From an uncultured Pelagibacteraceae bacterium (lineage in GTDB: Bacteria; Pseudomonadota; Alphaproteobacteria; Pelagibacterales; Pelagibacteraceae): a DNA stretch of 33,368 nucleotides. Each line of letters begins with the position of its first letter. Position 1 is the stretch's first letter. The position numbers and the translations under genes are program-made. The notes beneath the pieces were generated by a model. That model was not told the origin of the DNA and did no database searches. It saw only the letters and a list, made by a program, of their open reading frames with translations. Below are positions 1 through 27,939 of the stretch, piece after piece. Where the stretch lies: contig CACPQC010000009.1 of the NCBI GenBank assembly GCA_902635975.1, positions 1 to 33,368 on the forward strand, given 5' to 3'.

Positions 1-2050
1 TATTATAGTTCTGTTCAATAATTTTTATTGAGCCATCAATTCCTATTTCCTCACCATTATCATTTAAACTCTCAGACAAGCCATCGGTAAAAGCATAAAA
101 TCTTGAACCATTTAATTTCATTTTATGAATGTTATAAACATCTTTATGTTTTTGTTTGATAACTCCTAATGGAGGTGCTGAACTTTCGATCTGATTGTAT
201 TCACCATTGCTGTTTCGGATAACTGCTGGTTGATGCCCAGCATTAACCCATCTAATTTCATCAGATATTAAATTATATTCACCCACAATTGAAGTCACAA
301 ACATTCCTGCAGTTTTAGTGTTATTTAAATCATTGTTCATATGAAAAACCATTTCATCAGGATCTACTTTTGATTGAGATAAAACTTCAAATAAAGTTGA
401 TGCTTTAGCCATAACCATTCCAGCATGAATACCTTTTCCAGCCACATCGGCTATGACAAAATAAATGCTATCATTGTGAGGATAAAAACTGAAAAAATCG
501 CCAGATACTTCTCTTGCAGCAATATTAATTCCATGAACGGGATAATTTTTTAAATTTCTTTTTGGTAAAAAATTTTCTTGAACTTTGACTGCAAGTTTAA
601 CCTCTTTTGAAATTCTTTCACGCCATTTATTTTTTTCCTCCTCACTTGTCTCAAGCTTGCTCATTAACTTATTATAATATAGACCAATGACTCCACCTGC
701 GGTAAATGGATCTTGAGGACCTCTAATTTTAAGATCACCAGATATGGATTGTTTATCTAAAATTGAAATTAAATCATGTTCAATAGAAACCGCATTATGT
801 TCAGCAATATTTAATCCAAGCTCCTCTTGAGCTGGACCTACTCTTAGTGGATAAAATTTATTAATAATATTTAAAATCACAAAAGATGAAATAAATGTAA
901 AAGCTCCAATACTAATTACTCCTATAAATTGAGTTTTGACTTGTGAAATTCTATCAAGTCCGGTATCTAAAATACTTAAGTCACTAAAAAAACCAACTGC
1001 TAATGTTCCCCAAATTCCTGCAGCTAAATGAACTGGTACGGCACCAACTACATCATCGATTTCAAATTTATTTAAAATTTCATTTACAGTTACCGCTATA
1101 ATTGCACCGACAATTCCAACAAAAATTGAAGTCACTGATGTCATTGAATTACATCCGGCTGTGATTGAAACTAAACCTGCTAATGGTCCTAAGATAATAT
1201 AAAAAGGATCAGGCTTTTTAAACTTATAATAAGAAATACCTAAACCAGTTAATAAGCCAAATGCAGCGGCTAAAAAAGTATTAATTAAAATTAATGGAAC
1301 TGTTTCATCCATTGCACCATTACTTCCACCATTAAACCCAAACCAACCAAACCATAAAATTAAAGCTCCTAAAACGGCTAGAGGAAAACTTGATCCTGTA
1401 AATTTACCCTTATTAGCTTCGGAGTATTTACCAATTCGAGGGCCTAAAATTATTACCGCAGCAAGTGCAATCCATCCCCCAACAGAATGAACAATTGTAC
1501 TCCCAGCAAAGTCAACAAACCCTAAATCTGAAAGCCATCCTGTTGCTTTTACTTCACCTGTTACGTTTAATAATTGATTTACAGTATCATATTTTGATAG
1601 ATAACTTGAGGACCAAGCCCAATGACCAACTATAGGATAAATTATTCCAGTTGCTAAAACTGTCATTATTAAATATCCATTAAACTTCATTCTTTCAGCA
1701 ACAGCTCCTGAAATTATTGTTGCAGCGGTTGCAACGAACATTGCCTGAAAAACAAAGTAAGTCATGTATTCGGCTTTATCAGTTTTGAAGAAAAATAAAT
1801 CAGTACCAAAAAATCCATTATACGATGTGCCAAACATCAAGCCAAATCCAAAAATCCAAAATATAACTACTGAAACTCCAAAATCTGCAGCATTTTTTAA
1901 AGCAACGTTAATGCTGTTTTTATGTCTTGATAAACCAGTTTCCATACACATAAATCCTGCTTGCATAATGAAAACTAAAATTGCACAGTTGATGACCCAC
2001 AAAGAGTCGATATTGCTCATTAGAATATCAATTGCTTCTTGGGGCATCAT
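1..2050 (-). CDS. amt: Ammonium transporter (Amt) fused to SpoIIE/RsbU-type PP2C phosphatase, 3' end outside window
   Basis: I translated this by hand from the reverse strand because the ORF track omits it: 683 codons are open from ATG 2050 to the window edge. Residues 1 to about 410 are a full Amt channel. They include the membrane segments, FAGSTIVHSVGGW with the first pore histidine (about H188), LAGLVSITAGC, and GAVPVHLAAGIWG with the second twin histidine (about H341), so transport looks intact. After the usual Amt tail (GLNIAEHNA) come a linker and a charged helix (about 465-495), then a PP2C domain with REVSGDFF, VIADVAGKG, NAGHQPAV, PPLGV and FTDGLSE. The last 60 or so residues are missing. 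The fusion is read through without a frameshift. Only 11 bp separate it from the upstream lipoprotein gene. Its likely substrate is the phosphorylated STAS protein at 3832-4131. The domain calls are firm; the signalling role is inferred. Confidence 0.93.
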   Translation of the reverse strand, partial: MMPQEAIDILMSNIDSLWVINCAILVFIMQAGFMCMETGLSRHKNSINVALKNAADFGVSVVIFWIFGFGLMFGTSYNGFFGTDLFFFKTDKAEYMTYFVFQAMFVATAATIISGAVAERMKFNGYLIMTVLATGIIYPIVGHWAWSSSYLSKYDTVNQLLNVTGEVKATGWLSDLGFVDFAGSTIVHSVGGWIALAAVIILGPRIGKYSEANKGKFTGSSFPLAVLGALILWFGWFGFNGGSNGAMDETVPLILINTFLAAAFGLLTGLGISYYKFKKPDPFYIILGPLAGLVSITAGCNSMTSVTSIFVGIVGAIIAVTVNEILNKFEIDDVVGAVPVHLAAGIWGTLAVGFFSDLSILDTGLDRISQVKTQFIGVISIGAFTFISSFVILNIINKFYPLRVGPAQEELGLNIAEHNAVSIEHDLISILDKQSISGDLKIRGPQDPFTAGGVIGLYYNKLMSKLETSEEEKNKWRERISKEVKLAVKVQENFLPKRNLKNYPVHGINIAAREVSGDFFSFYPHNDSIYFVIADVAGKGIHAGMVMAKASTLFEVLSQSKVDPDEMVFHMNNDLNNTKTAGMFVTSIVGEYNLISDEIRWVNAGHQPAVIRNSNGEYNQIESSAPPLGVIKQKHKDVYNIHKMKLNGSRFYAFTDGLSESLNDNGEEIGIDGSIKIIEQNYN

Positions 2051-2061
2051 TTAGAAAATTA

Positions 2062-2349
2062 TTATCTATAAATACTCATTGGATCTTGAATGCAATCCAT
2101 TTGCTCTAAAGTTTCAAAAAATATTTCGCTTAGTTCCGAGGAATGAGTTGTTGGGCAAATATTATTATTAATCTCATCAATATAAGTTTGCTTTGCATTA
2201 TTCATAGCTAAAGAGCTAGATAATGAGCTTGATGCTTGTAGAATGCTACCAGTCTCAACCAAGGTATAACTTGGTCCAATCATTGAAGTATACTGGCCAC
2301 AGCTGCTCAATATAGGTACCAATAAAAATACAAAAAGGATTTTTTTCAT
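2062..2349 (-). CDS. Small lipoprotein of unknown function
   Basis: This 95-aa protein has a lipoprotein signal: positively charged MKK, a hydrophobic core, and lipobox LSSC with the acylated cysteine at residue 17. The mature part is rich in Ser, Ala and Thr (VETGSILQASSSLSSSLAMNN) and carries two further cysteines, which could form a disulfide in the periplasm. No enzyme motif is visible. It lies directly upstream of the Amt-phosphatase gene in the same direction, and downstream of the pilin genes after an 83-bp gap, so it may be an envelope partner of either system. I do not recognise the family beyond short lipoproteins of this style in marine alphaproteobacteria. Confidence 0.75.
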   Translation of the reverse strand: MKKILFVFLLVPILSSCGQYTSMIGPSYTLVETGSILQASSSLSSSLAMNNAKQTYIDEINNNICPTTHSSELSEIFFETLEQMDCIQDPMSIYR

Positions 2350-2432
2350 AACACGAACTTATTTAATTTTTTGATTTTCACAATGAAACAAAGTATCCAT
2401 TTTGAGTAAAATTTTATCATATTTATCAAGAT

Positions 2433-2678
2433 TTAATCTCTCTTTTTCCAAATTAGATAAAAGATAAATGGCACAATAGCTGGTACAAGACCAAACCAAA
2501 TCCATTCATCCCATTTAAAGCTTTTGTCAAATCCCGGATTTTTTATACCATTCCACCAGATCAGATAGCCGATGAAAATCATCCAGATGATACTTAAAGT
2601 TGAAAATATTTTTATTAAGCTTGATTGATTGCCAGAAAATAATTTTTCAATGAATTCTTTGAAATTGTTTTTAAACAT
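2433..2678 (-). CDS. Small two-helix inner membrane protein
   Basis: An 81-aa hypothetical protein. A basic, amphipathic N-terminus is followed by two hydrophobic segments (about residues 22-43 and 58-76), joined by a Trp- and Lys-rich loop (NGIKNPGFDKSFKWDEW), and it ends in a positively charged KKRD tail. This suggests a hairpin membrane protein. It begins 17 bp after the stop of the pilin-like gene and is probably cotranscribed with it. No family is recognised. A role in pilus assembly or as a transmembrane adaptor for the signalling proteins is possible from position only. Confidence 0.65.
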   Translation of the reverse strand: MFKNNFKEFIEKLFSGNQSSLIKIFSTLSIIWMIFIGYLIWWNGIKNPGFDKSFKWDEWIWFGLVPAIVPFIFYLIWKKRD

Positions 2679-2695
2679 TTTATTTCTGACATTTA

Positions 2696-3115: not shown

Positions 3116-3148
3116 AGTTCAGCACTTTTGTTTTTGTACTATCAGCAA

Positions 3149-3628
3149 TTATTCAAATACTTGAACTGTCGTTGTAAGGGCAGTTTCTGTACAATCCTTA
3201 TCCCAACATGTTGTAATCAATATTTTCTGTGTAGTGCCTGCATCAGCTTTTGTAACTACTACATTGCCTCTTACTTTATCAGTATCAGTAGGTGTTGTTC
3301 CAACCACTGATAACCCTCCATCATAAGGATCTTTATCTTGCAATACTGTTCCACCTGTTAGTACCGTAATAATAGCATCTGTAGTAGAAGTACATGTAAT
3401 AGTACCACCCATGATAGTAGCGTTTTCATCTAATGCACATTTTGCAGCTTCATTAGCAATATACTTTGCTACACCATTATGTATTGATTTTGTAGAATTC
3501 TCTCTTGCAGCTCCAATATACCCGTTATAAGCAACTACTCCTACAGCTGCCAATGCACCAATAATTGCAACAACAACTAATAATTCGATTAACGTAAAAC
3601 CTTTTTTGTCTTTATTTTTATTAGTCAT
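3149..3628 (-). CDS. pilA: Type IV prepilin, probable major pilin
   Basis: A 159-aa prepilin. I chose ATG 3628 rather than the ORF-track start at 3688. It is preceded by a strong purine run (AGGGAGG), it gives a normal leader (MTNKNKDKKG), and the longer version would run into a tandem repeat. The processing site is G|FTLIELL with Glu+5, then VVVAIIGALAAVGVVAYNGYIGAARE. The globular region contains four cysteines in two pairs, suggesting one conserved C-terminal disulfide loop. It is the first gene of the minus-strand pilin-lipoprotein-Amt group, and its strong ribosome binding site and position suggest high expression, hence the proposal that it is the major pilin. The symbol is by analogy. 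Confidence 0.88.
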   Translation of the reverse strand: MTNKNKDKKGFTLIELLVVVAIIGALAAVGVVAYNGYIGAARENSTKSIHNGVAKYIANEAAKCALDENATIMGGTITCTSTTDAIITVLTGGTVLQDKDPYDGGLSVVGTTPTDTDKVRGNVVVTKADAGTTQKILITTCWDKDCTETALTTTVQVFE

Positions 3629-3630
3629 AG

Positions 3631-3637
3631 ACCTCCC
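3631..3637 (-). promoter_or_regulatory. Strong Shine-Dalgarno of the major pilin gene
   Basis: On the minus strand GGGAGGT lies just before ATG 3628, with 3 nt between GGAGG and the start codon. Most starts in this window have weak, A-rich leaders, so this stands out and decides the start choice for the pilin. Confidence 0.6.
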
Positions 3638-3673
3638 TAAAATTTTAATATTTTTCATATAAAACCCATTCTT

Positions 3674-3722
3674 AATATTTATAACCATATGTAAAGAATA
3701 TTTATAACCATATGTAAAGAAT
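3674..3722. repeat. Tandem 23-bp direct duplication upstream of the pilin gene
   Basis: The unit AATATTTATAACCATATGTA (plus AAG) occurs at 3674-3696 and 3697-3719 without mismatch, followed by the first three bases of a third unit. It lies 46 bp upstream of the pilin start, within the divergent spacer between the pilin gene and the STAS gene. It could be a doubled operator or promoter element, or simple slippage. The function is not shown by sequence alone. Confidence 0.85.
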
Positions 3723-3776
3723 GAAGTTGTGAAATTAAAGTAAAAAAAGCTATTTTTTTATAAATAAGTGTTCATT

Positions 3777-3805
3777 TTGGCTCAAATTTGCGATTTTAAT
3801 AATTA
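3777..3805 (+). promoter_or_regulatory. Candidate sigma-70 promoter for the STAS-HATPase pair
   Basis: TTGGCT (3777-3782) and TAATTA (3800-3805) are separated by 17 bp, and the predicted start point would lie a short distance before ATG 3832. The match is only partial and the region is A+T-rich, so chance matches are common. It is offered as the best candidate in the divergent spacer. Confidence 0.3.
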
Positions 3806-3831
3806 ATTAATAATGCTATCACTACATCTTC

Positions 3832-4131
3832 ATGAGTTATAAAATTACTGAAGACGGAAACACATCCACAGTTTTTCTTGATGGAGAAATTGATATGGAT
3901 GTGACTGAAAAAGCAAAAGAGGTTATTTTACCATTAGTTGAGGCTGGAAAAGAAGTTCACCTTAATCTTAAAGATGTTTCTTATATGGACTCATCTGGAA
4001 TATCAGTTCTAATTGAAAGTCATCAAAAAGCTTTGGAGAATAATACTAAGGTTGTTGTCAAAGAAGTCAGTAAGTCTGTTCTAAAAGTGATCATGATGGC
4101 TAAGTTGGAACAAATATTAAACTTAGAATAA
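3832..4131 (+). CDS. STAS-domain anti-sigma factor antagonist (SpoIIAA/RsbV-like)
   Basis: A 99-aa single-domain STAS protein, the usual length for SpoIIAA/RsbV. The hallmark MDSSGISVLIE is at residues 52-62. By analogy with SpoIIAA, the serine before Gly (about S55) is the residue phosphorylated by the partner kinase and dephosphorylated by PP2C phosphatases. Beta strands and the helix after the DSSG loop are in the usual order (FLDGEIDMD, VHLNLKDVSYMDSSG). Its stop overlaps the start of the HATPase gene (TAATG), so the two are translationally coupled. In a partner-switching circuit the unphosphorylated form sequesters the kinase. It is divergent from the pilin genes and flanked by two PP2C genes in the wider locus. 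The family call is firm; the target of the circuit is unknown. Confidence 0.93.
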   Translation: MSYKITEDGNTSTVFLDGEIDMDVTEKAKEVILPLVEAGKEVHLNLKDVSYMDSSGISVLIESHQKALENNTKVVVKEVSKSVLKVIMMAKLEQILNLE

Positions 4132-4544
4132 TGGATTTATCAGAGTCTAAAGATTTTCTTGTGCATACTGCAAGCTTAAAAGAGGTAAGAGTCTTCTCAA
4201 GGGAAGTATTTGAAAAACTAAAAATAAATAATGATCTAAAGGAAGAATTGGTTTTAGCAATTGCTGAAGCAGCCCAAAATATAGTTAAACACGCATATAA
4301 AGGTGTTGAAAATACCGCTGACCACATGCAAATAAAAATTTCTCTTAAAGACGATAATTTAGAAATTGGGTTTTTTGATAAAGGAAAACCTGTTGTAGAA
4401 GAGAATATTCAACATAGAAAATTAGATGATATCAAACCCGGTGGTTTGGGGACTTTTTTTATAAAACAAATAATGGACGATGCGGTTTTTAAAAAAGATC
4501 AACAAAAGTGGGTCAATCATTTAATTTTATCTAAAAAAATTTAA
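4131..4544 (+). CDS. HATPase_c serine kinase / anti-sigma factor (RsbW/SpoIIAB-like)
   Basis: A 137-aa GHKL-fold protein, the usual size for RsbW/SpoIIAB. The N-box is EAAQNIVKHAY (Glu46, Asn50), the G1 box is FFDKGKP (Asp83, Gly85), and the glycine-rich ATP lid is GGLGTFFIKQIMD (about 104-116). It starts on the last base of the STAS stop codon. Its 3' end meets the convergent pilC gene, and the two stop codons share TTAA. Expected function: it phosphorylates the STAS protein and binds it when unphosphorylated; when free it holds another partner, classically a sigma factor. No sigma factor gene is visible in this window, so its effector could be elsewhere or could be something other than a sigma factor. 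Confidence 0.92.
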   Translation: MDLSESKDFLVHTASLKEVRVFSREVFEKLKINNDLKEELVLAIAEAAQNIVKHAYKGVENTADHMQIKISLKDDNLEIGFFDKGKPVVEENIQHRKLDDIKPGGLGTFFIKQIMDDAVFKKDQQKWVNHLILSKKI

Positions 4545-5788
4545 CCCCCCATAATCGCACCAACATTAAATATTGGTGAATACATCGCAATCATCAAACC
4601 ACCAATCATAATACCCATAAATACAATCATGATTGGCTCAATCAAACTTGACATATTATTTACGGCAGTGTCAAATTCACTCTCATAATATTTTGCAACT
4701 GAATTGAACATTTCATCTAGTTGTCCAGTTTGCTCACCAACAGAAACTAGTTGACTGAATGTTGGTGGGAACAGTGGTTCTTTTAAAAATAACTTTGTTA
4801 GTGTGTCACCTGAAAATACTCCTTTTTTTACATTTTCTAAAGCTTCTGTGACTACAACATTTTTACTGACGGACTTAGAGATTTCTATACTTTCTAATAA
4901 ATTCACCCCTGCCGCACTTAAATTTCCCATGATTAATGAAATTTGAGCTATTAAAGATTTTAAAATTAAATCCCCAAACACTGGTAATTTTAAAACTTGT
5001 TTATGCCACATATATTGTATTTTCGCATTTTTAGTTGTTAGGTACTTAAACAAAAAGTAACCTCCAACTAAAACTAAAAATAAAATTTTTCCACCAGCAC
5101 CTCTTAGAAAATCACTCATACCCATTATTATTGCTGTGGGTTTAGGTAAAGCAATACCCATACCTTCGTACATTTCAGCAAAGACTGGAACCACTTTGAC
5201 TAACATAAAAGCACTTACAACCATAGCAGTGGTAAACATTATGCCAGGGTACATAAGAGCACTTTTGATTTTTTTTTTAATTTTTTCCTTTTTTTCTAGA
5301 TCATCTACAATTTTCAAGAGAAAAACATCTAACTTACCACTGGCCTCACCTGCTTTGATTAAGTTTACATAGACATTATCAAAATATTGAGGATATTTTT
5401 CAAAATTTTTTGACAATGTTATTCCTCCCTCTAAGCCCTTTCTTATATCTTCGATTACTTCCTTAATTGCCGGGGACTCGAGTTGATCTCGTAGCATTGC
5501 AAGTGTTTGCAAAATCGGCAGTCCTGCTTTTACCATCGTTGCAAACTGTTTTGAGAATATTAAAATATCTTCTACTTTTACTTTTTTCTTACCAAATAAG
5601 GAAAGGCCTTTACTTTTAGCTTTAGTATTATCTTTTTTTTCGCCTTTTTTCTTCTTGGTTTTAACTAAATTTGTAATGATAAGTTTTTGCTCTTTAAGTT
5701 TAAAGGATGCTTCGTCCTGATTGAGAGCCTCTATCTCACCCTCAACATATTTTCCTGCAGAAATGCCTTTGTAAGCAAATAATTCCAT
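4541..5788 (-). CDS. pilC: Type IV pilus inner-membrane platform protein PilC (GspF family)
   Basis: A 415-aa GspF/PilC-family platform protein of normal length. It opens with FAYKGISAGKYVEGEIEA, typical of the N-terminal cytoplasmic segment, and has two GspF domains: FSKQFATMVKAGLPILQTL (about 80-100) and the second copy near ISLIMGNLSAAGVNLLESIE (about 285-305). Three hydrophobic segments are visible, the last being SSLIEPIMIVFMGIMIGG near the C-terminus. A Lys-rich linker (KTKKKKGEKKDNTK) lies near residues 44-60. It follows pilB with a 2-bp gap and ends the pilM-to-pilC operon. It sits in the inner membrane under the growing fibre and is turned by PilB for extension and PilT for retraction. 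Confidence 0.95.
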   Translation of the reverse strand: MELFAYKGISAGKYVEGEIEALNQDEASFKLKEQKLIITNLVKTKKKKGEKKDNTKAKSKGLSLFGKKKVKVEDILIFSKQFATMVKAGLPILQTLAMLRDQLESPAIKEVIEDIRKGLEGGITLSKNFEKYPQYFDNVYVNLIKAGEASGKLDVFLLKIVDDLEKKEKIKKKIKSALMYPGIMFTTAMVVSAFMLVKVVPVFAEMYEGMGIALPKPTAIIMGMSDFLRGAGGKILFLVLVGGYFLFKYLTTKNAKIQYMWHKQVLKLPVFGDLILKSLIAQISLIMGNLSAAGVNLLESIEISKSVSKNVVVTEALENVKKGVFSGDTLTKLFLKEPLFPPTFSQLVSVGEQTGQLDEMFNSVAKYYESEFDTAVNNMSSLIEPIMIVFMGIMIGGLMIAMYSPIFNVGAIMGG

Positions 5789-5790
5789 TG

Positions 5791-7542
5791 TTAACTAGCT
5801 GATAATACCCGTTCAAATTCCCTAAAATTTAAGTCTCCATTTGCAATCATTCTTCTGCCCATATCTTGCATGGTTTGAAAACCCTCTTTTATTGCGATTT
5901 CTCTTAATTCAGGTGTTGTTGCTTGTCTTAAAATTGCTTCTTTAATTGGTTTTGAAACAACTAATATTTCATAAATTCCTTGTCGACCTTTATATCCGCT
6001 GTCTTTACATTTTGCGCAACCTTTTCCCTTAGTCGCTTTTGTTCTTGAAGCTTGCTCAGGCGAAAAACCAAGGTCAGTTAAAACTTTTGGAGTTACATCT
6101 TCATCAGGAACTCTACAATCTTTGCAGTTTTTTCTAGCTAATCTTTGAGCAAGAACTAATTGTGTTGCAGCACTGATTAAATAATCAGGTGTTCCCATAT
6201 TTTGCAAACGTGTAATAGTACTTGGAGCATCGTTAGTATGCAGTGTGCTAAATACTAAGTGACCTGTCAATGCAGCTTTTAATCCAATGTCAACTGTCTC
6301 TTTATCCCTCATCTCTCCAACCAAGATTATTTCAGGGTCTTGACGTAAAAAAGATCTCAGTGCAGATGCAAAAGATAAACCTATATCATCTTTAATTTGA
6401 ACCTGTCCGACACCATCTAATTCATATTCGACAGGATCTTCTGCTGTTAAAATATTTAAGTGAGGTTTGCTTACCTCTTTTAAGATACTATAGAGTGTGG
6501 TTGATTTACCTGAACCAGTGGGCCCAGTAACCAGAATTAAACCTTGAGTGCTATGAATAGATTTCCTCAAATTTTTTAAATCCTGATCTTCAAAATTTAA
6601 TTGTTCAAGTGTTATATCCCCTGCGTCCTTATTAAGAATACGCATTACAATTCTCTCATTATTGGCTGTCGGTAAAATTGATAATCTTAAATCTACTACC
6701 TTACCATCTATTTTAAAATTTATTGCTCCGTCTTGAGGTAATCTTCTTTCTGCAATATCCAATTTACCCATAATTTTAAATCGGGTTACGACAGCTCCGT
6801 AATTATCATGTAAAAATTTTTTATACTCCTCCTGCTCTTGAAGCATTCCATCTAATCTGTATCTAACACGTGATGAGAATCGATAAGGTTCAATATGAAT
6901 ATCACTAACTCCTAATTTAATCGCCTCTGCTACAACTGCAGTACTGAATTTGATTACTTCAGACTCGTTTTCTAAAGCTTCAACTTCCTCTTCTGGTTTT
7001 TCCTCTAAAACTTCTCCAGCATCACCAAGATCTGAGTCAAACGTTTTAGTTTTTTCTTTACGTTCTTCTCTTATAGCTTCAGTCGTTACCTCTCCAGTTT
7101 CACTTTGTAGTTTTTGAATAAATTCAGATATTTGCGATACTTTAGCAGCATGAAGTTCAATATTTTTTTTTGTGATTGCTTTTAAGTTTCTCATTAATCC
7201 AAGTTTCGAACTATCTGAAATTGCTATGTGTAGATCTTTCCCATCAACTTTAAATGGCGCAACAAAATTCATGTTAATGTAATTAGATGGCAGAACAGAT
7301 TTAATTTCATCGGTAATTTGAATTTTTGATAAGTCTGCAACTTCTAGGCTTTGCTCTTTAACTAAAACATCTAGAATTTTATCTTCATCACACAGTTTTA
7401 ATTCAAAAACTGCATCAATTTGTGATTTATTTTTTTCAGTGCTAACTTTTTTAATATTAGGTAAATCTTTTCCTGAAATAATATCGTTATCAATTAAAAC
7501 ATTGATTAAGTTAATTTCACTTTCTCTACTAATTTTTAACAT
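5791..7542 (-). CDS. pilB: Type IV pilus extension ATPase PilB (GspE/MshE family)
   Basis: About 583 aa, using ATG 7542 directly after the secretin stop at 7544. The ORF-track start at 7563 would add seven residues inside the secretin gene. The N-terminal domain (about 1-150) resembles the MshEN/GspE-N region. An acidic linker follows (LEEKPEEEVEALENES), then the ATPase core: SDIHIEPY, Walker A GPTGSGKSTTL (about residue 340), Asp box, ILVGEMRDKET (Walker B region), and HTNDAPSTITRL. A four-cysteine zinc site (CKDC and CAKC) near the C-terminus separates it from retraction ATPases. It powers pilin polymerisation from the cytoplasmic face and acts through PilC and the PilM-PilN protein. Confidence 0.95.
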   Translation of the reverse strand: MLKISRESEINLINVLIDNDIISGKDLPNIKKVSTEKNKSQIDAVFELKLCDEDKILDVLVKEQSLEVADLSKIQITDEIKSVLPSNYINMNFVAPFKVDGKDLHIAISDSSKLGLMRNLKAITKKNIELHAAKVSQISEFIQKLQSETGEVTTEAIREERKEKTKTFDSDLGDAGEVLEEKPEEEVEALENESEVIKFSTAVVAEAIKLGVSDIHIEPYRFSSRVRYRLDGMLQEQEEYKKFLHDNYGAVVTRFKIMGKLDIAERRLPQDGAINFKIDGKVVDLRLSILPTANNERIVMRILNKDAGDITLEQLNFEDQDLKNLRKSIHSTQGLILVTGPTGSGKSTTLYSILKEVSKPHLNILTAEDPVEYELDGVGQVQIKDDIGLSFASALRSFLRQDPEIILVGEMRDKETVDIGLKAALTGHLVFSTLHTNDAPSTITRLQNMGTPDYLISAATQLVLAQRLARKNCKDCRVPDEDVTPKVLTDLGFSPEQASRTKATKGKGCAKCKDSGYKGRQGIYEILVVSKPIKEAILRQATTPELREIAIKEGFQTMQDMGRRMIANGDLNFREFERVLSAS

Positions 7543-7543
7543 T

Positions 7544-9091
7544 CTATAAAACCCTTGGTGCAATAAATATTAACATTTCTGTTAACATATCCTGTTTTTC
7601 AGTTCCTTTAAATAAATTTCCTAGAACAGGTACATTTCCCATTCCTGGTAATTGTTGTTTGTTATTTTTTATCGAATTTTTCTTTATTCCGCCAATAACT
7701 ACTATATCTCCATCTGCAATCAAAAGCTTAGTTTCTATCTGCATAGTGTTTATTGACGGATCGGCACCCGCATTCGATTTGACAGAGTCATTTTTGACTG
7801 TAACATCTAAAAGTACATTTCCATCACCAATAATACTTGGTGTAACTGATAATTCTAGATTAGCTGGTTTAAATTGGACATCCGCTCCCTCTGAGCCTGT
7901 AGCCTGATATGAAATTTCTTCACCTTGTTTAATATTAGCTATTTGGTTATCTAATGTAAAAACTTTAGGATTAGATATAGTTTTTCCAAGACCAAGTTTT
8001 TCTAAAGCTTGTATTTCAGCTTTTAAAACTGCTGACCCCGTTCTTTTTAATATACCAATACCACTCGTTGCACCTATTGCAGATGAAGTAAAATCTGTAA
8101 TTTGTCCCTCACCACCTGAGACCGTACCTAGGGTTGGAGTAATTGGCCCATCGGTCGCTGCTCCTCCTATTGTACCACCAACAATCTCTTGCTGTCTTGA
8201 GTAGGCTGCTCCTAGTCTTGTACCAAGTGCTTTTTCAAAATCTGAATTTGCCTCAACTATAAATGCCTCAATTAAAACTTGTCTTGTTTTTACATCAATC
8301 TCACTAAGAATTTTATCTACCACATCTAAATCTTCAACCTTACCTCTTACGATAATTGATCTTGTTGTAGCTTCTTCAGTAATTTGTATTGGTGAAAAAC
8401 TACTTTCACCTGTAGTTGCAAATAATTCATTGATTGTAGTCTTAGCTTGTGCGGGTGAAATATAGTAAAGTCTAAAAATTTCAGAAACAATTGGCTCGAC
8501 TGAATCCTCTAATTCAACTTTCTTTTTTACGGCTGCGGCTCTCGTTGATTTATATGTCTCTTGAGCTGTTAAAGTGGAAGGTGTGTGTACTCTAATTAAA
8601 TTACTAGACACATCAATATCAGCAGCAAAATTTTTCATATCTAACAAAGCATTAAAAGCTTTATCCCAAGGAACATTAATCAATTCAGCAGAAATTGAAC
8701 CTGCTACCTCATCACCTACTAAAACATTAATGTCTCCAACCTTGCCCATTAATTGCATTGCTTCTGCATAATCCAAATTTTTAAATTTAAAGGATACAGT
8801 TTGTTTTAATTCTGTAAATTCGTCTGGTATCAATAAATAATTTCTTTTTTGTTGTGCTGATATTTTTTTTCTTTTTTGCAAAGCTTTTGTATCCCCTTCA
8901 ACTGGCTTAGGGCCCATCTCCACAGTTTTTTCAATCTCTATTCGTCCAGACTTTCTTATATCATCTTTTATAAGAGGTGTATTATGCTTGAAACCTTTAC
9001 CCTTTTTAGAAAGAGTATTAGACGCACATCCATTTAAAACTAAAAACAATAATGAGATTAAAGGAATTATTTTTAATAATCTAATATTCAC
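7544..9091 (-). CDS. pilQ: Type IV pilus outer-membrane secretin, lipidated (PilQ/MshL-like)
   Basis: A 515-aa secretin, shorter than typical PilQ (about 700 aa) and close to MshL size. It begins with a lipoprotein signal whose lipobox is LNGC (cysteine about residue 22), so it is probably lipid-anchored. The periplasmic part contains an STN-like segment (VSFKFKNLDYAEAMQLMGK, about 95-115) and a secretin_N domain (IFRLYYISPAQAKTTINELF). The C-terminal secretin domain has VLIEAFIVEANSDFEKALG and the family signature VPVLGNLF, and ends in a hydrophobic strand. No AMIN domains are visible. It overlaps the PilP gene by 11 bp. It forms the outer-membrane gate for the pilus. Lipidation of the secretin itself may explain why no pilotin (PilF/PilW-type TPR) gene is seen nearby. 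Confidence 0.93.
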   Translation of the reverse strand: MNIRLLKIIPLISLLFLVLNGCASNTLSKKGKGFKHNTPLIKDDIRKSGRIEIEKTVEMGPKPVEGDTKALQKRKKISAQQKRNYLLIPDEFTELKQTVSFKFKNLDYAEAMQLMGKVGDINVLVGDEVAGSISAELINVPWDKAFNALLDMKNFAADIDVSSNLIRVHTPSTLTAQETYKSTRAAAVKKKVELEDSVEPIVSEIFRLYYISPAQAKTTINELFATTGESSFSPIQITEEATTRSIIVRGKVEDLDVVDKILSEIDVKTRQVLIEAFIVEANSDFEKALGTRLGAAYSRQQEIVGGTIGGAATDGPITPTLGTVSGGEGQITDFTSSAIGATSGIGILKRTGSAVLKAEIQALEKLGLGKTISNPKVFTLDNQIANIKQGEEISYQATGSEGADVQFKPANLELSVTPSIIGDGNVLLDVTVKNDSVKSNAGADPSINTMQIETKLLIADGDIVVIGGIKKNSIKNNKQQLPGMGNVPVLGNLFKGTEKQDMLTEMLIFIAPRVL

Positions 9092-9518
9092 TTTGCTCCT
9101 TTATCTGATTTTTAAAATTCATAATTAAATATTTATCCTCGGTAGCAAAAACAGCCTCTTTAGTTGTCATATCAACTAATTTTACACCGTCGCTGACCTC
9201 CTCAAACATTGAAACAGTTATTATTTCGCCATCTTGATTGATTAGAGAAATGAAGCTAGCTGAGTCTGACTTTATAATTCCTGCCAATTTATAAGTGTAT
9301 AAATCTATTCTTTTCTTTTCACTCAACGGAGCTCCTCCCTCTGTTATTACTTTAACTCCACCGGAAAAAGATGAGTCCCCAACAAATGGGTCATTTAAAG
9401 GTAAAGGTTCTTCCTTAGAGGAATTATTTTTATCGTGATTATCAGCGAGCAAATGGGTGCTGAAAATTAAAAAAGCTAATAAAACTAACTTTGAACTGAA
9501 TTTATTAAAAAAACTCAT
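9081..9518 (-). CDS. pilP: Pilus alignment-complex protein PilP-like
   Basis: A 145-aa secreted protein with a signal peptide ending around HLLADNHD. The visible lipobox cysteine of typical PilP is absent, so this one may be soluble or membrane-tethered by an uncleaved signal. A disordered acidic stretch carries NDPFVGD, like the NDPF-type motif before the folded part of PilP. The C-terminal domain LAGIIKSDSASFISLINQDGEI fits the GspC/PilP homology-region fold that contacts the secretin. Its start lies inside the end of pilO (14-bp overlap) and its stop inside pilQ. It should link the PilN-PilO inner-membrane ring to the secretin N domains. The assignment rests on fold-like pattern and operon order. 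Confidence 0.82.
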   Translation of the reverse strand: MSFFNKFSSKLVLLAFLIFSTHLLADNHDKNNSSKEEPLPLNDPFVGDSSFSGGVKVITEGGAPLSEKKRIDLYTYKLAGIIKSDSASFISLINQDGEIITVSMFEEVSDGVKLVDMTTKEAVFATEDKYLIMNFKNQIKEQSEY

Positions 9519-10188
9519 CTGCTAGCCCCACTATTGTTAAAGTTCCACTTACTTTTATCGCTCCAGTTGAATCTGATTTTACCACTTGTATCTTTTCTGA
9601 CTCAAAATTCAACATCTTATTAGATAGCGATAAAGCTCTTTTAAATTTGATATACCCTAAAAAGTTGCCATTAATCTCAAATTTTACTGGTATCGTGTAA
9701 TAGGCAATATTTTTAATTGCCTCTTTTTTATTTTTTGCTTTTTTTGGTTTTTTCTTTTTTTTCTTACCTTTATTTAAAATCTCTGATTTTGACACTTCCG
9801 TTGGTTTACCCTTCTCAATAACAGAAATGACTAAACCATTGATAGTAGCAAACTCACTTAAATTTTGATAAAGCCCTTCTACCTCAGCTTTTGAGTGAAA
9901 TAGCGTTGAATAATTTTCATATTTAGGCTTAATTTTTTTAATTTTTCTTTTCACAGAAATAATTTCGTTATTAAATTTTACTATCTCTTCCTGTTTAGTG
10001 TTCATATCAGTAATTTGAGCTTTTTTTTCTTTAACAATTGGATTTAAAACAGCATAGTAAATGATTAAGAAAATTATAATTGATCCAAGACTTATACCAA
10101 TTTTAATTAAAGTTTTTTTATCGGCAAAAGCTATAATTTTTGCTTTTAAGTCATCCATATTCAGATTTTTTAATTCATTTAAATCCAT
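9505..10188 (-). CDS. pilO: Pilus alignment-complex protein PilO-like
   Basis: A 227-aa bitopic inner-membrane protein. Cytoplasmic residues 1-30 are followed by one transmembrane helix (IGISLGSIIIFLIIYYAVL, about 31-52), a coiled coil (EKKAQITDMNTKQEEIVKF through about 100), then a ferredoxin-like C-terminal domain (VKFEINGNFLGYIKFKRALS, FESEKIQVV). This is the PilO/GspM layout at the usual length. A run of lysines (KGKKKKKKPKKAKNKKEA, about 141-158) interrupts the first half of the periplasmic domain and is unusual. It starts 2 bp after the pilM-pilN fusion and overlaps pilP, in the canonical M-N-O-P-Q order. It should pair with the PilN part of the upstream protein. Confidence 0.87.
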   Translation of the reverse strand: MDLNELKNLNMDDLKAKIIAFADKKTLIKIGISLGSIIIFLIIYYAVLNPIVKEKKAQITDMNTKQEEIVKFNNEIISVKRKIKKIKPKYENYSTLFHSKAEVEGLYQNLSEFATINGLVISVIEKGKPTEVSKSEILNKGKKKKKKPKKAKNKKEAIKNIAYYTIPVKFEINGNFLGYIKFKRALSLSNKMLNFESEKIQVVKSDSTGAIKVSGTLTIVGLADEFF

Positions 10189-10190
10189 AA

Positions 10191-12647
10191 CTATCCTTTA
10201 ATTTTTACGAAAACCTTAAATCCTTTCATTGTTTGATCACCAGCTTTAACTCTAGGCATTTTCATTGATGATAAAGATGCTTGGGTAATTAATTTTTTAG
10301 ATTGTAAATTTCTAATTAGCTGTAATATATCATTATCTCCAGCAGCAATCCCTGTTATAGAAACAAGTTTTTTTCCATCATACTCAACAAGATCAAATTT
10401 TACTCTGCTAGGAACGCTACTTGCAATCTGTGCTAAAATTCTATAGCTCAAATCTTTGTTAGACTTTAGACTGTTGCTAAGTTTAAGAGTGGTTGTCATT
10501 TTTTTTAATTCTTTTGATACTTTAGCGAGTTGATTTGATTTTGATGTATGCTCTGTAACCACAGTATCATACAGTTTAAGTTTGTTATTGTAATTATAGA
10601 TATTCCAGAAAGCTAATGTAAATAAAATTAGATATACTCCAACTACAGCCCCAACAAATCCCTTATAGGCAAAATTTGAAAAGGCTTTCATTTTCTTTTG
10701 CTTAATCATTCCTTCTCTATTTGGAAGAAGATTTATATTTTTAACAGCAGTTACAAATTTGTAATATCCAAATACATCAAGTTTTCTAAAAGCAAGACCA
10801 ACAGTTGTTGAAAAGTAAGACCGGTTAGTTAAGTTAATTTTACTCTCTAATTGTTGAGGTATTTTAAGTCCTTCAAAGGGATCAAATAAATTAAATCCTG
10901 TATTTACTAAAGTTTTTCTAAAACTTGATAAATAATCTTCAACATTTTCTAAATTTGATACAACTTTTATATTTCTAACCCTCTTTTCATATTTTGTTTC
11001 AAAATCTTGAACCGCTTGTTTAACTTGTGTCATAAAACGTCTTACTAATGCGTCTTTTTCTTCTTGATCTTGCGACTCTTTTAAAATTTTTCTATCTTGC
11101 CCACGTAAAAAAATGTCAGTAATTATTGGGTTATTGTTGTATAGGATCATTACGTAATTTTCATCCAAACCAAATTCCAGCATTGCAGTAAAATTTGTAT
11201 CCTCTGTTTTATTTGAAATTTGATTTATTTGGTCAACTGCAGATTTTAAAGCAAAACATTTAACATCAATGATAACAGGATTTAATCCACTATTTTTAAT
11301 AATATTTGTATAATTATTTATGTCAGCTAATTTTGAAGCAACAAATAAAATATCCATTGTATTATCTTTTGAGTTTCTATTAATGACTTGATGAAATATA
11401 GAGTAGTCATCTAAGTTATCTGTCAACTGGACTAAATTTTCCCATAACGAGTTAGTATCTATTGCTTTTTTTAATTCCTCATCATTCATTAATGGTGCAG
11501 TAACTACTCTGATAATTGCATTAGTAACTGGGATTGCAATAGCAGCATTAGGAGTTGTTATTTTTGATTTCTGTAAAGCTACATTTAATTCATCACCTAC
11601 TTTTTGTTCATGATCAACAATAGCCGCGTCCTCAGGTAAGTCAATTGGATGAACATAAAATCTTTCTAAAACCCATTGATTAGCTTTATTTGAAGAAATT
11701 TGCGTTAGTCTAATTTCTTTGTTAGTTATTTCAACACCAACAATTTCTTCGCCTTGCGCAGTCTTCTTCCCTAACCTAGATTTTAAAAAGTTATTAAATT
11801 TTTCTTTTACTTTATTTTTATTAAAACTCATTTTTGGACTACTTGAATCTTTTTTTCCAAATGAAGGTGCTTTAAATTTTATATCTTTAAATTTATTTAA
11901 AAAATTTTTAACCTTTGATTGTTCTTCACTATTTGTTATTTCAGTCTGATTTAAAGAAGTATTATTTTCTAACTCCGTTTTTGTTTCAACAGTTTCTTTA
12001 TTTACAGTTTCTTGTAAAGGGACATCGTCTTTTCTTGCTGGCAATGTTATATCTGTTGTAATGGTTTCGTTAGAAGTAGTTTCTAAATTTTGTGGTTGTG
12101 TTCGTTTGTCAGTTTCTTGTGTCGACTTTTGTTCTAATTCTTTTTGTTCTTTTTCTTTTTGCGCATGAACATCGTCAAACCATTTTTCTAAAATCGGAAT
12201 TGCTTCTTCTAAGTCTGGAGTTCCCGATGATGAAATTTTTTGTTTTCCGTCTATATAGAGCCTACCAACCCAATTTTTTGACTTAAGCTCTCCTTTGTAT
12301 TTATCTTGTCTGACATAAATATGTAATCTGCCATCTTTCTTGTGAATTACTTGATGTTCTTTTTTTTCTTCTGTTCTTTGTGTCGTATTTTCAACTAACG
12401 GGCTTTCACTTTTAACTTCTTGCTCTTTATTAGTGTCGTTTTCATTTAAGTTGTCTTCTTTTGATAAATTTTTATTAATTTTATCTTCTTCAGGTTGTAT
12501 ATTTTCTGAAGTTGTTGAAGTTTCCTCATTAGAGGGAGTTACTTCTTGCTTTGTATCTGGAGTAGGTGCAACTGAAGATTGATCATCCTTATTTTGATCA
12601 TTCTTATCAATGATGACACCAAACTTTTCTTTTTCTTTGTCGTCCAT
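10191..12647 (-). CDS. pilMN: PilM-PilN fusion with long N-terminal extension
   Basis: I chose ATG 12647 (818 aa). The ORF-track start at 12698 is a GTG, and its extra 17 codons consist of operator-like repeats. Three parts are visible (numbering from 12698). Residues 18-317 are a charged, Glu/Thr/Asn/Lys-rich low-complexity region holding a small folded-looking segment (about 114-178). Residues 318-620 are PilM, an actin-like ATPase: VGVEITNKEIRLTQIS start, AIAIPVTNAIIRVV, LEFGLDENYVMILY, QAVQDFETKY. PilN follows with INLLPNREG at 655-663, one transmembrane helix (676-700), a coiled coil, and a C-terminal ferredoxin-like domain. PilM normally binds the INLLP motif at the PilN N-terminus, so fusion places both partners in one chain. 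It is the first gene of the operon and couples cytoplasmic PilB/PilC to periplasmic PilO/PilP. Length and architecture are unusual. Confidence 0.9.
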   Translation of the reverse strand: MDDKEKEKFGVIIDKNDQNKDDQSSVAPTPDTKQEVTPSNEETSTTSENIQPEEDKINKNLSKEDNLNENDTNKEQEVKSESPLVENTTQRTEEKKEHQVIHKKDGRLHIYVRQDKYKGELKSKNWVGRLYIDGKQKISSSGTPDLEEAIPILEKWFDDVHAQKEKEQKELEQKSTQETDKRTQPQNLETTSNETITTDITLPARKDDVPLQETVNKETVETKTELENNTSLNQTEITNSEEQSKVKNFLNKFKDIKFKAPSFGKKDSSSPKMSFNKNKVKEKFNNFLKSRLGKKTAQGEEIVGVEITNKEIRLTQISSNKANQWVLERFYVHPIDLPEDAAIVDHEQKVGDELNVALQKSKITTPNAAIAIPVTNAIIRVVTAPLMNDEELKKAIDTNSLWENLVQLTDNLDDYSIFHQVINRNSKDNTMDILFVASKLADINNYTNIIKNSGLNPVIIDVKCFALKSAVDQINQISNKTEDTNFTAMLEFGLDENYVMILYNNNPIITDIFLRGQDRKILKESQDQEEKDALVRRFMTQVKQAVQDFETKYEKRVRNIKVVSNLENVEDYLSSFRKTLVNTGFNLFDPFEGLKIPQQLESKINLTNRSYFSTTVGLAFRKLDVFGYYKFVTAVKNINLLPNREGMIKQKKMKAFSNFAYKGFVGAVVGVYLILFTLAFWNIYNYNNKLKLYDTVVTEHTSKSNQLAKVSKELKKMTTTLKLSNSLKSNKDLSYRILAQIASSVPSRVKFDLVEYDGKKLVSITGIAAGDNDILQLIRNLQSKKLITQASLSSMKMPRVKAGDQTMKGFKVFVKIKG

Positions 12648-12668
12648 TTTTTTATATTTTTTTTTTAT

Positions 12669-12722
12669 TCTAACACAAACATACCGAATCTCTAACACAA
12701 ATAAAAAAAAAGTCTAACACAA
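12669..12722. repeat. Three TCTAACACAA motifs phased at exactly 22 bp
   Basis: Perfect copies begin at 12669, 12691 and 12713, all in the same orientation, so each step is 22 bp, about two helical turns. They sit immediately upstream of the pilMN start codon at 12647, in the expected 5' untranslated or promoter-proximal zone. Same-face phasing suggests cooperative binding of a regulator. They are too short and too A+T-rich between copies to be a CRISPR. Confidence 0.85.
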
Positions 12723-12837
12723 TTTTCAACTTAAGGTGGTCATTTTGGGTTAAATCTCAAATAAGTATTGATTTTACTTACTTTCTTAAAAAAATAAAAA
12801 AATACTTAAATCATAATTTTATAATTAATTTTACATC

Positions 12838-12875
12838 ACTCTAACACAATTAAATTTATAACCTTGTGTTAGAGT
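12838..12875. repeat. 12-bp perfect inverted repeat made of two motif copies
   Basis: ACTCTAACACAA (12838-12849) and its exact complement TTGTGTTAGAGT (12864-12875) are separated by 14 bp. They contain motif copies four and five in opposite orientation. The pair could be a dyad operator. It could also form a weak hairpin in RNA, but the stem is A+T-rich. The T-run lies only on its plus-strand side, where no gene ends, so a terminator role is not favoured. Confidence 0.8.
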
Positions 12876-12950
12876 TTTTGATTTGAAATATAAATACAGA
12901 AAACTCAATAAAATCAATATTTTTTGAATTTTAATCATTAAGTTGTAAAT

Positions 12951-12980
12951 TTGTGTTAGAGTAAATTATTTTGTGTTAGA
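12951..12980. repeat. Two further motif copies in opposite orientation (TTGTGTTAGA)
   Basis: Perfect copies at 12951-12960 and 12971-12980, 20 bp apart, are oriented opposite to the 12669-12722 group. Both extend to TTTGTGTTAGAG. With the other five copies they make seven in about 310 bp. I found no other perfect copy when scanning the rest of the window by eye. Confidence 0.85.
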
Positions 12981-13289
12981 GCTGTTCATTTAGGATTTAT
13001 TAAAGTTTAATTTATTAAAATTTTTCATTTTGAAATGATAAAATTTAGAAAAGTTAATCTGTTTTTATAGAAAATTTGTCAATTTTTTCGAATTACAATC
13101 AAAAATTGTATAAATTTTAAAATAAAACTTCAAATTTTAAAAATTTATTATGATTAATTAAAAAATTAAATTTTTTTTACTAAAGAAATTGTATTTTAAG
13201 ATTTTTTACGTGGAATTAAAATAATTACAATTGATTAATCATTTTATTAAATATTTTTAAAATAAATATTTAAATAAATATTGTTTTAA

Positions 13290-13595
13290 TTATTCAATTA
13301 ACGATCTTCCTGTTATGTCTGTAGTAAATTGTTGGTATATCATCACTGATAGTGTCTCAACATTACTAACAACTCTATTATAATCAAAAGACCAATCAAC
13401 TTTGGTACAATCTAACTCTTTGTAATAATAAATTTTTGTTTTTTTTATTGATGGATCGATTTCTTCCGTAAGTATATTTAATAATTTTGTTTTTTTATCA
13501 ATTGCAAAATTATACCTACATACATTTGAGGTTGTCCAATAAAATATTACAGAAATTAAAATCGCAACGAATGACATAACTTTAGTTAAGCTCAT
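13290..13595 (-). CDS. Small exported or membrane-anchored protein coupled to the GAF-phosphatase
   Basis: A 101-aa hypothetical protein. One hydrophobic N-terminal segment (VMSFVAILISVIFYWTT, about 6-22) is an uncleaved anchor or signal peptide. The rest is a soluble domain rich in Lys, Tyr and Asp, with cysteines near residues 26 and 63 that could pair in the periplasm. Its start overlaps the stop of the GAF-PP2C gene (ATGA), which implies translational coupling and a functional link. It has no recognisable catalytic motif. A periplasmic sensor or inhibitor partner of the phosphatase is possible from context alone. Confidence 0.7.
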   Translation of the reverse strand: MSLTKVMSFVAILISVIFYWTTSNVCRYNFAIDKKTKLLNILTEEIDPSIKKTKIYYYKELDCTKVDWSFDYNRVVSNVETLSVMIYQQFTTDITGRSLIE

Positions 13596-14878
13596 TGAAC
13601 ACTATCAACTGTCACAATTGTTAAATCATCTTTTTGTATCATTCCTGCTTTGACAATATCTTCAATCATTAACTTAAGTCTTTTATTATTCGGAGTGTGT
13701 TGATATTTTTTAATATACTTTTGGAAACCTTCAACTTCGAGCATGTCACCTGAAGGATCTCTTATCTCAGTGATGCCATCGGTAAAAATATACATTGAGC
13801 TGTCAGAAAAGTTTGTAGTGGTTTCTTTATATTTTATTTTTGAAGTTATACCTAGGGGTGGACCAGCTTCAGAAAAGTTAGAAAAGTTTTGATCTTTATC
13901 AATTACAAGTGGTGGTTCATGACCTGCGTTTGATAATAATAATTCTTTTTTATTACTATCATAAATTCCAATCAACATTGTTACGAACATTCCTCTTGCA
14001 GCGGTTTCACATATTTCTTTGTTAAGTAAATTTAAAAGATCTGAAGTTGAAAAAATAGTTTTGCTTAAACATCTATACAAACTTGATGCCTTTGACATCA
14101 GTAAGGAAGACTTGATACCTTTGCCTGAAACATCAGCAACACCAAAACCATAAATTCCTTTTGCAATTTCAGAAAAATTATAAAAATCACCAGAAACAAC
14201 TTTCGCTGGAATATTTATTCCTGCAATTGGAAAGTCTTCATTTTTATTCTTAGATAATAAAGTTTTTTGTATTTCACCAACTATTTCTATTTCTTTTTGC
14301 ATTCTATTTTTGTCAATTAATTCTTTAGCCATTTTTGCATTACGAATTGCTAAAGCAGCTGGGGCAGATAATGTCTCTAACAATTTTCTATCATTCTCCT
14401 CGAATAACTTAGAGGATGTTTTTTTATTTAAACAATGGATTACTCCTATACATTCATTTGCAGCAATTAATGGTGAACATAGAACTGAATAAGTTGTAAA
14501 ATTTGTTTTGTTATCTAAATCAAAATAAAACTCAGCTATTTCTCTTACATCTTTTCTAACATCTCCAACTCTAATACATTTTTTTTGAAGAACTGCTTTT
14601 CCCATTACTCCTTGAGTTAGTGGTATCTCGTATTCATCAAGGTATGATTGATATTTGGATGCAATACATTGGAAAACTTGTTTCTTTTCATCTATCAAAA
14701 AAATATTTGCAGCTTGGGCATTTATTCTTTTTATGATTACTTCTAATGCAGTTTGCAAAGTTTCATTCAAATCTAAAGAGGTAGCAAACTCTTGATTCAT
14801 TTGCGTAATTATTGCCAAATCTTGGTTTAAATCGTTATCTTTTGTAATTGGCACTACTTTTTTTGATTTAAAAAACAT
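13592..14878 (-). CDS. GAF-domain SpoIIE/RsbU-type PP2C serine phosphatase
   Basis: A 428-aa cytoplasmic protein. Residues 20 to about 185 form a GAF domain (LDLNETLQTALEVIIKRI, PLTQGVMGKAVLQKK, YSVLCSPLIAANECIGVIH), a helical linker follows (KNRMQKEIEIVGEIQKTLL, about 190-210), and then a PP2C domain. The metal-binding acidic residues are visible in KVVSGDFYNF (D231), GVADVSGKG (D249), FTDGITEIRD and QKDDLTIVTV, so the enzyme looks active. It should dephosphorylate the STAS antagonist encoded at 3832-4131, as RsbU/SpoIIE-type enzymes do, in response to a small molecule, protein or redox signal bound by GAF. It is divergent from pilD and lies just upstream of the pilMN promoter region. It is the second PP2C of the window, with the same REVSGD/VVSGD and DV(A/S)GKG style as the Amt fusion. 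Confidence 0.94.
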   Translation of the reverse strand: MFFKSKKVVPITKDNDLNQDLAIITQMNQEFATSLDLNETLQTALEVIIKRINAQAANIFLIDEKKQVFQCIASKYQSYLDEYEIPLTQGVMGKAVLQKKCIRVGDVRKDVREIAEFYFDLDNKTNFTTYSVLCSPLIAANECIGVIHCLNKKTSSKLFEENDRKLLETLSAPAALAIRNAKMAKELIDKNRMQKEIEIVGEIQKTLLSKNKNEDFPIAGINIPAKVVSGDFYNFSEIAKGIYGFGVADVSGKGIKSSLLMSKASSLYRCLSKTIFSTSDLLNLLNKEICETAARGMFVTMLIGIYDSNKKELLLSNAGHEPPLVIDKDQNFSNFSEAGPPLGITSKIKYKETTTNFSDSSMYIFTDGITEIRDPSGDMLEVEGFQKYIKKYQHTPNNKRLKLMIEDIVKAGMIQKDDLTIVTVDSVQ

Positions 14879-27863: not shown

Positions 27864-27939
27864 TAAAAAATTAAAGTATTTAATTATTAACAATTTTAGT
27901 TATATTCCAAAGTGATTAAAATTTAACGCTTACTGTATT

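Follow-up and report, generated by a model that had tools for sequence, protein, structure and literature searches.

The DNA analysed here (the window: 33,368 nucleotides, the whole contig G000:C9 of a SAR11 genome that is 57% complete) carries a type IV pilus (T4P) locus interspersed with the components of a partner switch, namely two PP2C phosphatases, one fused to an ammonium transporter domain (Amt-PP2C) and one to a GAF domain (GAF-PP2C), a small STAS protein and an RsbW-like HATPase kinase. Comparative evidence suggests that this module belongs to the SAR11 T4P system and that the state of the STAS protein, set by sensor PP2Cs, governs the pili, a reading to which we assign a probability of roughly 0.66. 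In its favour speak the parts themselves, their intact motifs, a near-obligate tie to T4P within SAR11, a homology link between the GAF-PP2C and the kinase/STAS pair, a retained ammonium site and the absence of any dedicated sigma factor, all of them read from sequence.

In the proposed mechanism, the RsbW-type kinase would phosphorylate the STAS protein on Ser54, and several PP2Cs, each equipped with a sensor of its own (in the window, a GAF domain and an ammonium sensor derived from Amt), would dephosphorylate it. Ammonium binding would alter the activity of the Amt-PP2C, which presumably acts on this same STAS protein, and the resulting phosphorylation state would decide whether pili, the putative target, are made or active. 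Most likely, the unphosphorylated STAS protein acts on a non-sigma target, which would make the control local and perhaps post-translational.

Components of the module and of the pilus locus

The signalling proteins and the core pilus genes are arranged as follows.

2..2050, minus strand: Amt-PP2C (Pfam Amt 1.4e-111, SpoIIE 2.1e-29), with an ammonium transporter domain at 18-420, a linker DPFTxxGxIxxxYN and a SpoIIE-type PP2C domain from 527; C-terminus cut by the contig edge
2696..3115, minus strand: type IV pilin (N_methyl 6.9e-07)
3149..3688, minus strand: type IV pilin (N_methyl 1.8e-08)
3832..4131, plus strand: STAS protein, RsbV/SpoIIAA-like (Pfam 3.8e-15; RsbV 6m36_B 4e-09)
4131..4544, plus strand: RsbW/SpoIIAB-like serine kinase, HATPase_c_2 (Pfam 1.6e-17; sole PDB match RsbW 6m36_A)
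4541..5788, minus strand: PilC (T2SSF, by Pfam)
5791..7563, minus strand: PilB extension ATPase (by Pfam)
7544..9091, minus strand: PilQ secretin (by Pfam)
9081..9518, minus strand: PilP-like, by position and relatives, with no Pfam match
9505..10188, minus strand: PilO (Pfam 6.4e-06)
10191..12698, minus strand: PilM-PilN fusion with a long N-terminal extension (PilM_2 5.7e-19, PilN 5.7e-07)
13592..14878, minus strand: GAF-PP2C, RsbU/RsbP-like input phosphatase (SpoIIE 3.4e-37, GAF_2 3.2e-15), with all PP2C motifs
15063..15833, plus strand: PilD prepilin peptidase, divergent from the GAF-PP2C and found with it in 79/80 loci

The original prediction had read positions 1-14878 as an RsbU/RsbV/RsbW part list lying among T4P genes. 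A Pfam search recovered every element it named where it had placed them, and the presence of the two PP2Cs, the STAS protein and the kinase, as well as their assignment to these families, was borne out by domain matches and by motifs that are intact wherever the sequence is complete. The extent was drawn too short, the T4P locus running on to ~25385 with PilD, a PilY1-like protein, minor pilins and PilT. The STAS and HATPase genes form a plus-strand pair that starts divergent from the pilins and ends convergent against pilC; the HATPase gene shares 1 base with the STAS gene and 4 bases with the 3' end of pilC.

The GAF-PP2C retains SGDF, ADVSGKG, TDG and DDLT, and in the Amt-PP2C the contig edge falls just ahead of the last PP2C motif. 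The N-box and G-boxes of the HATPase are intact in the window (E46/N50, D83-G85, G104-G107), with E46, N50, D83, G85 and G104-G107 invariant across 12 aligned orthologues. The STAS motif D53-S54-S55-G56 is likewise intact, and DSSG is kept in all aligned SAR11 STAS-only proteins. These align with the region of RsbV and SpoIIAA around the phosphorylated serine, which makes S54 of MDSSG the predicted phosphorylatable residue by alignment; the corresponding peptide of strain HTCC1062, holding the putative phospho-Ser, is YMDSSGISVLIESHQK. Judged by sequence, the GHKL-type serine kinase, the STAS protein and the PP2Cs, which keep metal-binding Asp residues, thus have the features of an Rsb-type partner-switching module.

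Association with type IV pili across SAR11

Co-occurrence was surveyed in 147 genomes of the family. An RsbW-type HATPase was found in 23 of them and STAS-only proteins in the same 23, while the secretin was present in 27 genomes, 22 of which also have the kinase. The 23rd kinase-positive genome has no secretin, and its contig ends inside pilC. In all assessable genomes (22/22) kinase and secretin lie within 10 kb of each other, and of the 43 PP2C genes found on the same contig as a secretin, 38 lie within 25 kb of it. Fisher's test for kinase-secretin co-occurrence gives p 2e-20, a value that ignores descent; in a descent-aware test based on an RpoD tree of 60 genomes, with 10 independent pairs differing in the kinase, the secretin tracks the kinase in 9-10 of the 10 (mean 9.5) and never runs in the opposite direction (sign p 0.002).

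Gene order points the same way. Among 31 assessable loci of single-cell genomes, the STAS-HATPase pair adjoins pilC in 27; in the other four an autotransporter gene is inserted and the kinase lies farther along the same contig. Since the same arrangement recurs across SAR11, chance does not account for it. Three T4P locus architectures were found, each with its own HATPase and STAS: besides that of the window, one from another genus (G004, ~40% identity) and a further one in G009, G022, G017, G063 and G078, the last two both with divergent HATPase and STAS proteins near the T4P genes. Physically and phylogenetically the gene set therefore appears tied to T4P, within SAR11 only. A tree of kinase origin, comparing one SAR11 recruitment with two, did not separate them (p-AU 0.41), and the first tree carried a long-branch warning.

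The divergent pilus locus (L219-L225, L122; G017, G009, G078) spans ~60 kb and encodes very large unidentified proteins; its PP2Cs have a CHASE2 or receiver domain, and beside pilD lies the gene of a STAS protein whose tail is proline-rich. In G040, a short pilC and a pilD in two frames (L232:4922-5914, 15559-16322) may reflect decay of the locus or sequence error.

GAF-PP2C homologues and the module outside SAR11

In the window the GAF-PP2C gene lies ~9 kb from the STAS-HATPase pair, and its relatives (at identities of up to 100%) nearly all carry the name Pelagibacteraceae/Pelagibacter. Homologues from other Alphaproteobacteria, ~36-42% identical and mostly so over ~95% of the length, directly adjoin HATPase and STAS genes or are fused to the HATPase in one polypeptide beside STAS. 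These operons and fusions tie the GAF-PP2C to this kinase/STAS pair and provide good, if sequence-derived, evidence that they act together. The neighbours of the module in these bacteria include MlaD/ABC or HlyD/ABC transport genes, and neither a pilus gene nor a sigma factor was seen in the retrieved flanks. The expectation that the parts would keep company with pilus genes in relatives thus held within SAR11 (22/22 kinases, 31/31 loci, 9-10/10 pairs) and failed outside it, where the GAF-PP2C/HATPase/STAS operon stands near MlaD/ABC or ABC-exporter genes. The pilus link is accordingly a feature of SAR11, as far as genome comparison can tell, and not a general one.

Sensor inputs and the Amt-PP2C as a probable ammonium receptor

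The PP2Cs of T4P-positive SAR11 genomes carry Amt, GAF, CHASE2 or receiver (weak HisKA match) inputs, or are bare. Twelve kinase-positive genomes were searched for Amt, and six of them (G000, G026, G035, G043, G051 and G004) have an Amt-PP2C; T4P-positive genomes that have none can likewise carry kinase and STAS. As the inputs vary, the switch appears to be the conserved part and ammonium one input of several. The idea of a circuit with two inputs was consequently too narrow; an ammonium-type input does exist, and nitrogen status as the signal relayed to the pili is not supported as originally put, given the six kinase-positive genomes without an Amt-PP2C.

The Amt domain and linker of the window protein align to PDB 8qj3 over 15-482 and also to Ks-Amt5 (6eu6), an Amt-histidine kinase fusion of Kuenenia whose ammonium site comprises Q24, E31, N47, D50, T51, T109 and T112 and which, despite retaining the transport motifs, is inefficient at translocating ammonium (PMC5764959). 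The sensor-site residues of the window protein are Q30, E37, N53, D56, T111 and S114. In all nine SAR11 Amt-PP2Cs examined, Q24, E31, N47, D50 and T109 of Ks-Amt5 are kept, with Ser in place of T112 and Phe in place of T51 (5/7 identical). Among 18 free-standing SAR11 Amts (Rh-like proteins set aside), 15 have A24 and L or K at position 50, and the other three, with T24, Y31 and I50, likewise miss the site. Because the signature is kept in the fused and missing in the free-standing proteins, the Amt-PP2C most likely functions as a receptor for ammonium whose output is the PP2C. Its link to this particular STAS/kinase pair is suggested by domain identity and genomic association only.

In 399 genomes of the phylum, a small sample, no Amt-PP2C was recognised outside SAR11 among the Amt fusions read, whose partners were PAS/GGDEF-type, kinase and receptor-like domains. 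Across Pseudomonadota, the site signature is common to most of the Amts that are fused to some other signalling domain, and a DPF...G.I...YN linker recurs in several. The combination of the Q/E/N/D/T signature with the DPF...YN linker (L301-L316, L318) may set sensor Amts apart from transporters; the ammonium-site signature is also present in two short Amts (L316, L318).

PII was not found in 10 genomes of the window's genus, that of the window being incomplete, nor in the Amt-PP2C-bearing G004. The SAR11 clade is usually described as being without PII. Three genomes from other genera of the family, all without an Amt-PP2C, do have PII genes (G005:C1:43286, G009:C1:277820, G040:C1:750067), in two of the three directly beside amt.

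The module in strain HTCC1062

The gene order of genome G026 (autotransporters, symporter, two Amts, two pilins) matches the list given for hypervariable region 1 (HVR1) of HTCC1062, SAR11_0042-0054 (PMC2217521), and its HATPase occupies the position of RsbW, SAR11_0057 (PMC13198564); G026 is therefore taken to be HTCC1062. The order is as in the window: two tandem Amt-PP2Cs (SAR11_0049/0050, catalogued as ammonium transporters), two pilins, two STAS genes, the HATPase, pilC-B-Q-P-O-MN, the GAF-PP2C and pilD. A 2025 phosphoproteome of this strain reported a single Ser/Thr kinase, RsbW, and no known protein phosphatase (PMC13198564). Four SpoIIE-type PP2C genes are present (L112:15070-19561, L113:12116-13462, L115:6827-7693) and are thus candidates for the missing phosphatase activity.

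The fourth of them, SAR11_1218, is located in HVR4, where two pilin genes flank it and a globin gene (PMC2217521, Table 9). This cassette (L115:5622-8455, SAR11_1216-1219) encodes a pilin, a truncated-globin-like protein, a bare PP2C and a second pilin, and the globin-like protein could sense oxygen or NO; it forms a second pilin cassette with its own phosphatase.

Output of the switch and alternative explanations

All nine closed kinase-positive genomes have exactly two Sigma70_r2 genes, RpoD and RpoH, and the same holds for kinase-negative ones. A dedicated alternative sigma factor was considered across the 147 genomes and rejected, as only these two were found; their being the only ones present excludes a dedicated sigma-70-type output factor and, on this genomic evidence, makes a canonical sigma-B output unlikely. 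No sigma-32-type promoter was found at <=1 mismatch in four intergenic stretches of the locus, which is a weak negative, and sigma-70-like sites near the STAS/pilin region were no commoner than in shuffled sequences. c-di-GMP was also rejected as a co-regulator, no GGDEF domain being present in 15 genomes. PilB (5791-7563) has an MshEN domain in which no clear c-di-GMP consensus motif is visible by eye, which fits the absence of GGDEF.

Since kinase, STAS and T4P are present or absent as a set, with the sigma factors retained in either case, a STAS protein acting as a local output on pili is favoured by analogy with HmpV, the STAS protein proposed as the output for T4P motility in Nostoc (PMC6495340, PMC8256260). 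It is tempting to go further and imagine that external ammonium, sensed by a receptor phosphatase of transporter origin, and other cues converge on one STAS protein with a direct action on the pilus machine, in place of PII, c-di-GMP and alternative sigma factors, though this fuller scheme is offered tentatively, as possible rather than probable.

Several observations weigh against a module dedicated to T4P. Five T4P-positive genomes (G013, G059, G085, G098 and G100, 64-89% complete) have no kinase match, in four of them pilC directly abuts the pilins, and the module is thus not essential for T4P. Some PP2Cs of T4P-positive genomes lie far from the pilus locus, the homologous module outside SAR11 does not stand near pilus genes, and the Amt-PP2Cs lie in HVR1, a region of fast gene turnover (PMC2217521). 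The support for the reading comes from comparative genomics.

A more specific alternative is that the unphosphorylated STAS protein or the free kinase docks on the pilus ATPase or on the PilM-N-O platform and switches extension. Pfam reveals no transcription factor in the pil locus of the window, no dedicated sigma factor exists, and with GGDEF absent, control of the PilB MshEN domain through c-di-GMP from GGDEF enzymes would be unavailable. In other Alphaproteobacteria the module stands beside MlaD/ABC or HlyD/ABC transport machines, and MlaB-type STAS proteins act on ABC ATPases. An action of BtrU and BtrW on the type III secretion process as such has been proposed (PMC8256260). The docking partner is, however, putative and the neighbours in other bacteria merely suggestive, and we consider this version rather unlikely.

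The output could instead resemble that of Chlamydia trachomatis, where a partner switch controls the housekeeping sigma factor (PMC8256260): the kinase would sequester RpoD or RpoH and exert broad transcriptional control, its linkage to T4P marking genes that need control. RpoD and RpoH are the only sigma-70-type factors available, and in HTCC1062, for which no Ser/Thr kinase other than RsbW is reported, both were found phosphorylated (PMC13198564). Yet kinase and STAS vanish with T4P while RpoD and RpoH stay, so the dispensable function would be pilus-related, and the lack of sigma-32-like promoters, weak as that negative is, also speaks against this explanation, which is improbable.

Still harder to sustain is the notion that pilus, sensor-phosphatase and autotransporter genes merely share a hypervariable island with no joint function. 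HVR1 does hold both Amt-PP2Cs and the pilins of HTCC1062 (PMC2217521), and two isolates from one seawater sample differ by one tandem Amt copy and one autotransporter. But HVR1 ends at SAR11_0054, leaving STAS, HATPase and the pil core outside it (PMC2217521), the kinase stays at or near pilC in 31/31 loci, the association holds over three unlike T4P architectures and 9-10/10 independent pairs, and a second region, HVR4, has a PP2C gene flanked by pilin genes; hitch-hiking of this kind is very unlikely. Least credible of all is that the Amt-PP2C serves ammonium uptake, with transport regulated by its PP2C tail and the module controlling that uptake and not pili: the transport-path Phe gate, twin His and Trp are kept in 9/9 Amt-PP2Cs and the selectivity-filter Ser in 5/9, window protein included, but Ks-Amt5 keeps transport motifs too and is an inefficient translocator (PMC5764959), free-standing Amts occur alongside the Amt-PP2C, the full ammonium-sensor site is present in the fused SAR11 Amts and not in the free-standing ones, and kinase and STAS are present in T4P-positive genomes without any Amt-PP2C.

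Relation to known systems

The closest parallel by description is the Hmp system of Nostoc punctiforme (HmpU/V/W), in which PP2C, STAS and HATPase proteins are likewise tied to T4P-driven motility (PMC6495340, PMC8256260). Hmp belongs to a cyanobacterial host with several alternative sigma factors, and no ammonium-sensor input is described for it in PMC6495340 and PMC8256260, whereas the SAR11 pair sits inside the T4P locus and has several alternative PP2C sensors. RbaV/RbaW of Rhodobacter capsulatus are also an alphaproteobacterial STAS/kinase pair, likened to that of SAR11 by description; unphosphorylated RbaV is the proposed output and affects motility genes, but no embedding in T4P genes is described (PMC8256260). 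BtrU/BtrV/BtrW of Bordetella exemplify a partner switch dedicated to one envelope machine, although that machine is type III secretion and STAS phosphorylation is reported to influence kinase binding in the reverse sense (PMC8256260). With RsbU/RsbV/RsbW and SpoIIE/SpoIIAA/SpoIIAB of Bacillus the SAR11 module shares the three protein families and the conserved catalytic and phosphorylated residues, but it has no cognate sigma factor and several interchangeable sensor phosphatases per kinase. The Amt-PP2C resembles Ks-Amt5 and other fused Amts in its high-affinity ammonium site (PMC5764959), and its linker is common to Amt-PAS/GGDEF-type and Amt-kinase proteins; it differs in a PP2C output that would feed a STAS/kinase switch rather than a kinase or second-messenger enzyme.

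A literature search with partial coverage returned no paper on an Amt-SpoIIE fusion or on PP2C/STAS partner switching with T4P. Each ingredient has precedents, be it the partner switch, the partner switch linked to T4P or the Amt sensor; what is new is their combination in a regulator-poor organism. SAR11 bacteria, the most numerous in the ocean, dominate the heterotrophs of its surface waters with almost none of the usual regulators, and what the RsbW kinase does, what SAR11 pili are for and how ammonium is sensed without PII become directly testable in the cultured strain HTCC1062.

Other features of the window

The remaining genes of the locus are listed below.

2062..2349, minus strand: small lipoprotein (weak LPAM_1 match), with neighbours conserved in L113, L121 and L127
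2433..2678, minus strand: 81-aa predicted membrane protein, conserved beside pilins in several relatives
13290..13595, minus strand: 101-aa membrane protein encoded with the GAF-PP2C, present in 52/80 SAR11 loci around it
15830..20755, minus strand: PilY1-like adhesin, by position, with no strong Pfam match; conserved in relatives
21347..25385, minus strand: minor pilins (PilX, PilW, PilV, FimU-like) and the PilT retraction ATPase (by Pfam)

The small lipoprotein travels with the sensor PP2Cs, adjoining an Amt-PP2C or a CHASE2-PP2C in relatives. A 591-base intergenic stretch of 15% GC (12699-13289) separates pilMN from the small gene preceding the GAF-PP2C, and an Rfam scan of the window, this stretch included, gave no RNA family match. 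The N-terminal extension of the PilM-PilN fusion (10191-12698) comprises ~300 residues of low complexity and varies in length among relatives. Finally, tandem autotransporter genes at 25536-30201 adjoin the pilus locus, and their relatives recur at both ends of SAR11 loci of this kind.

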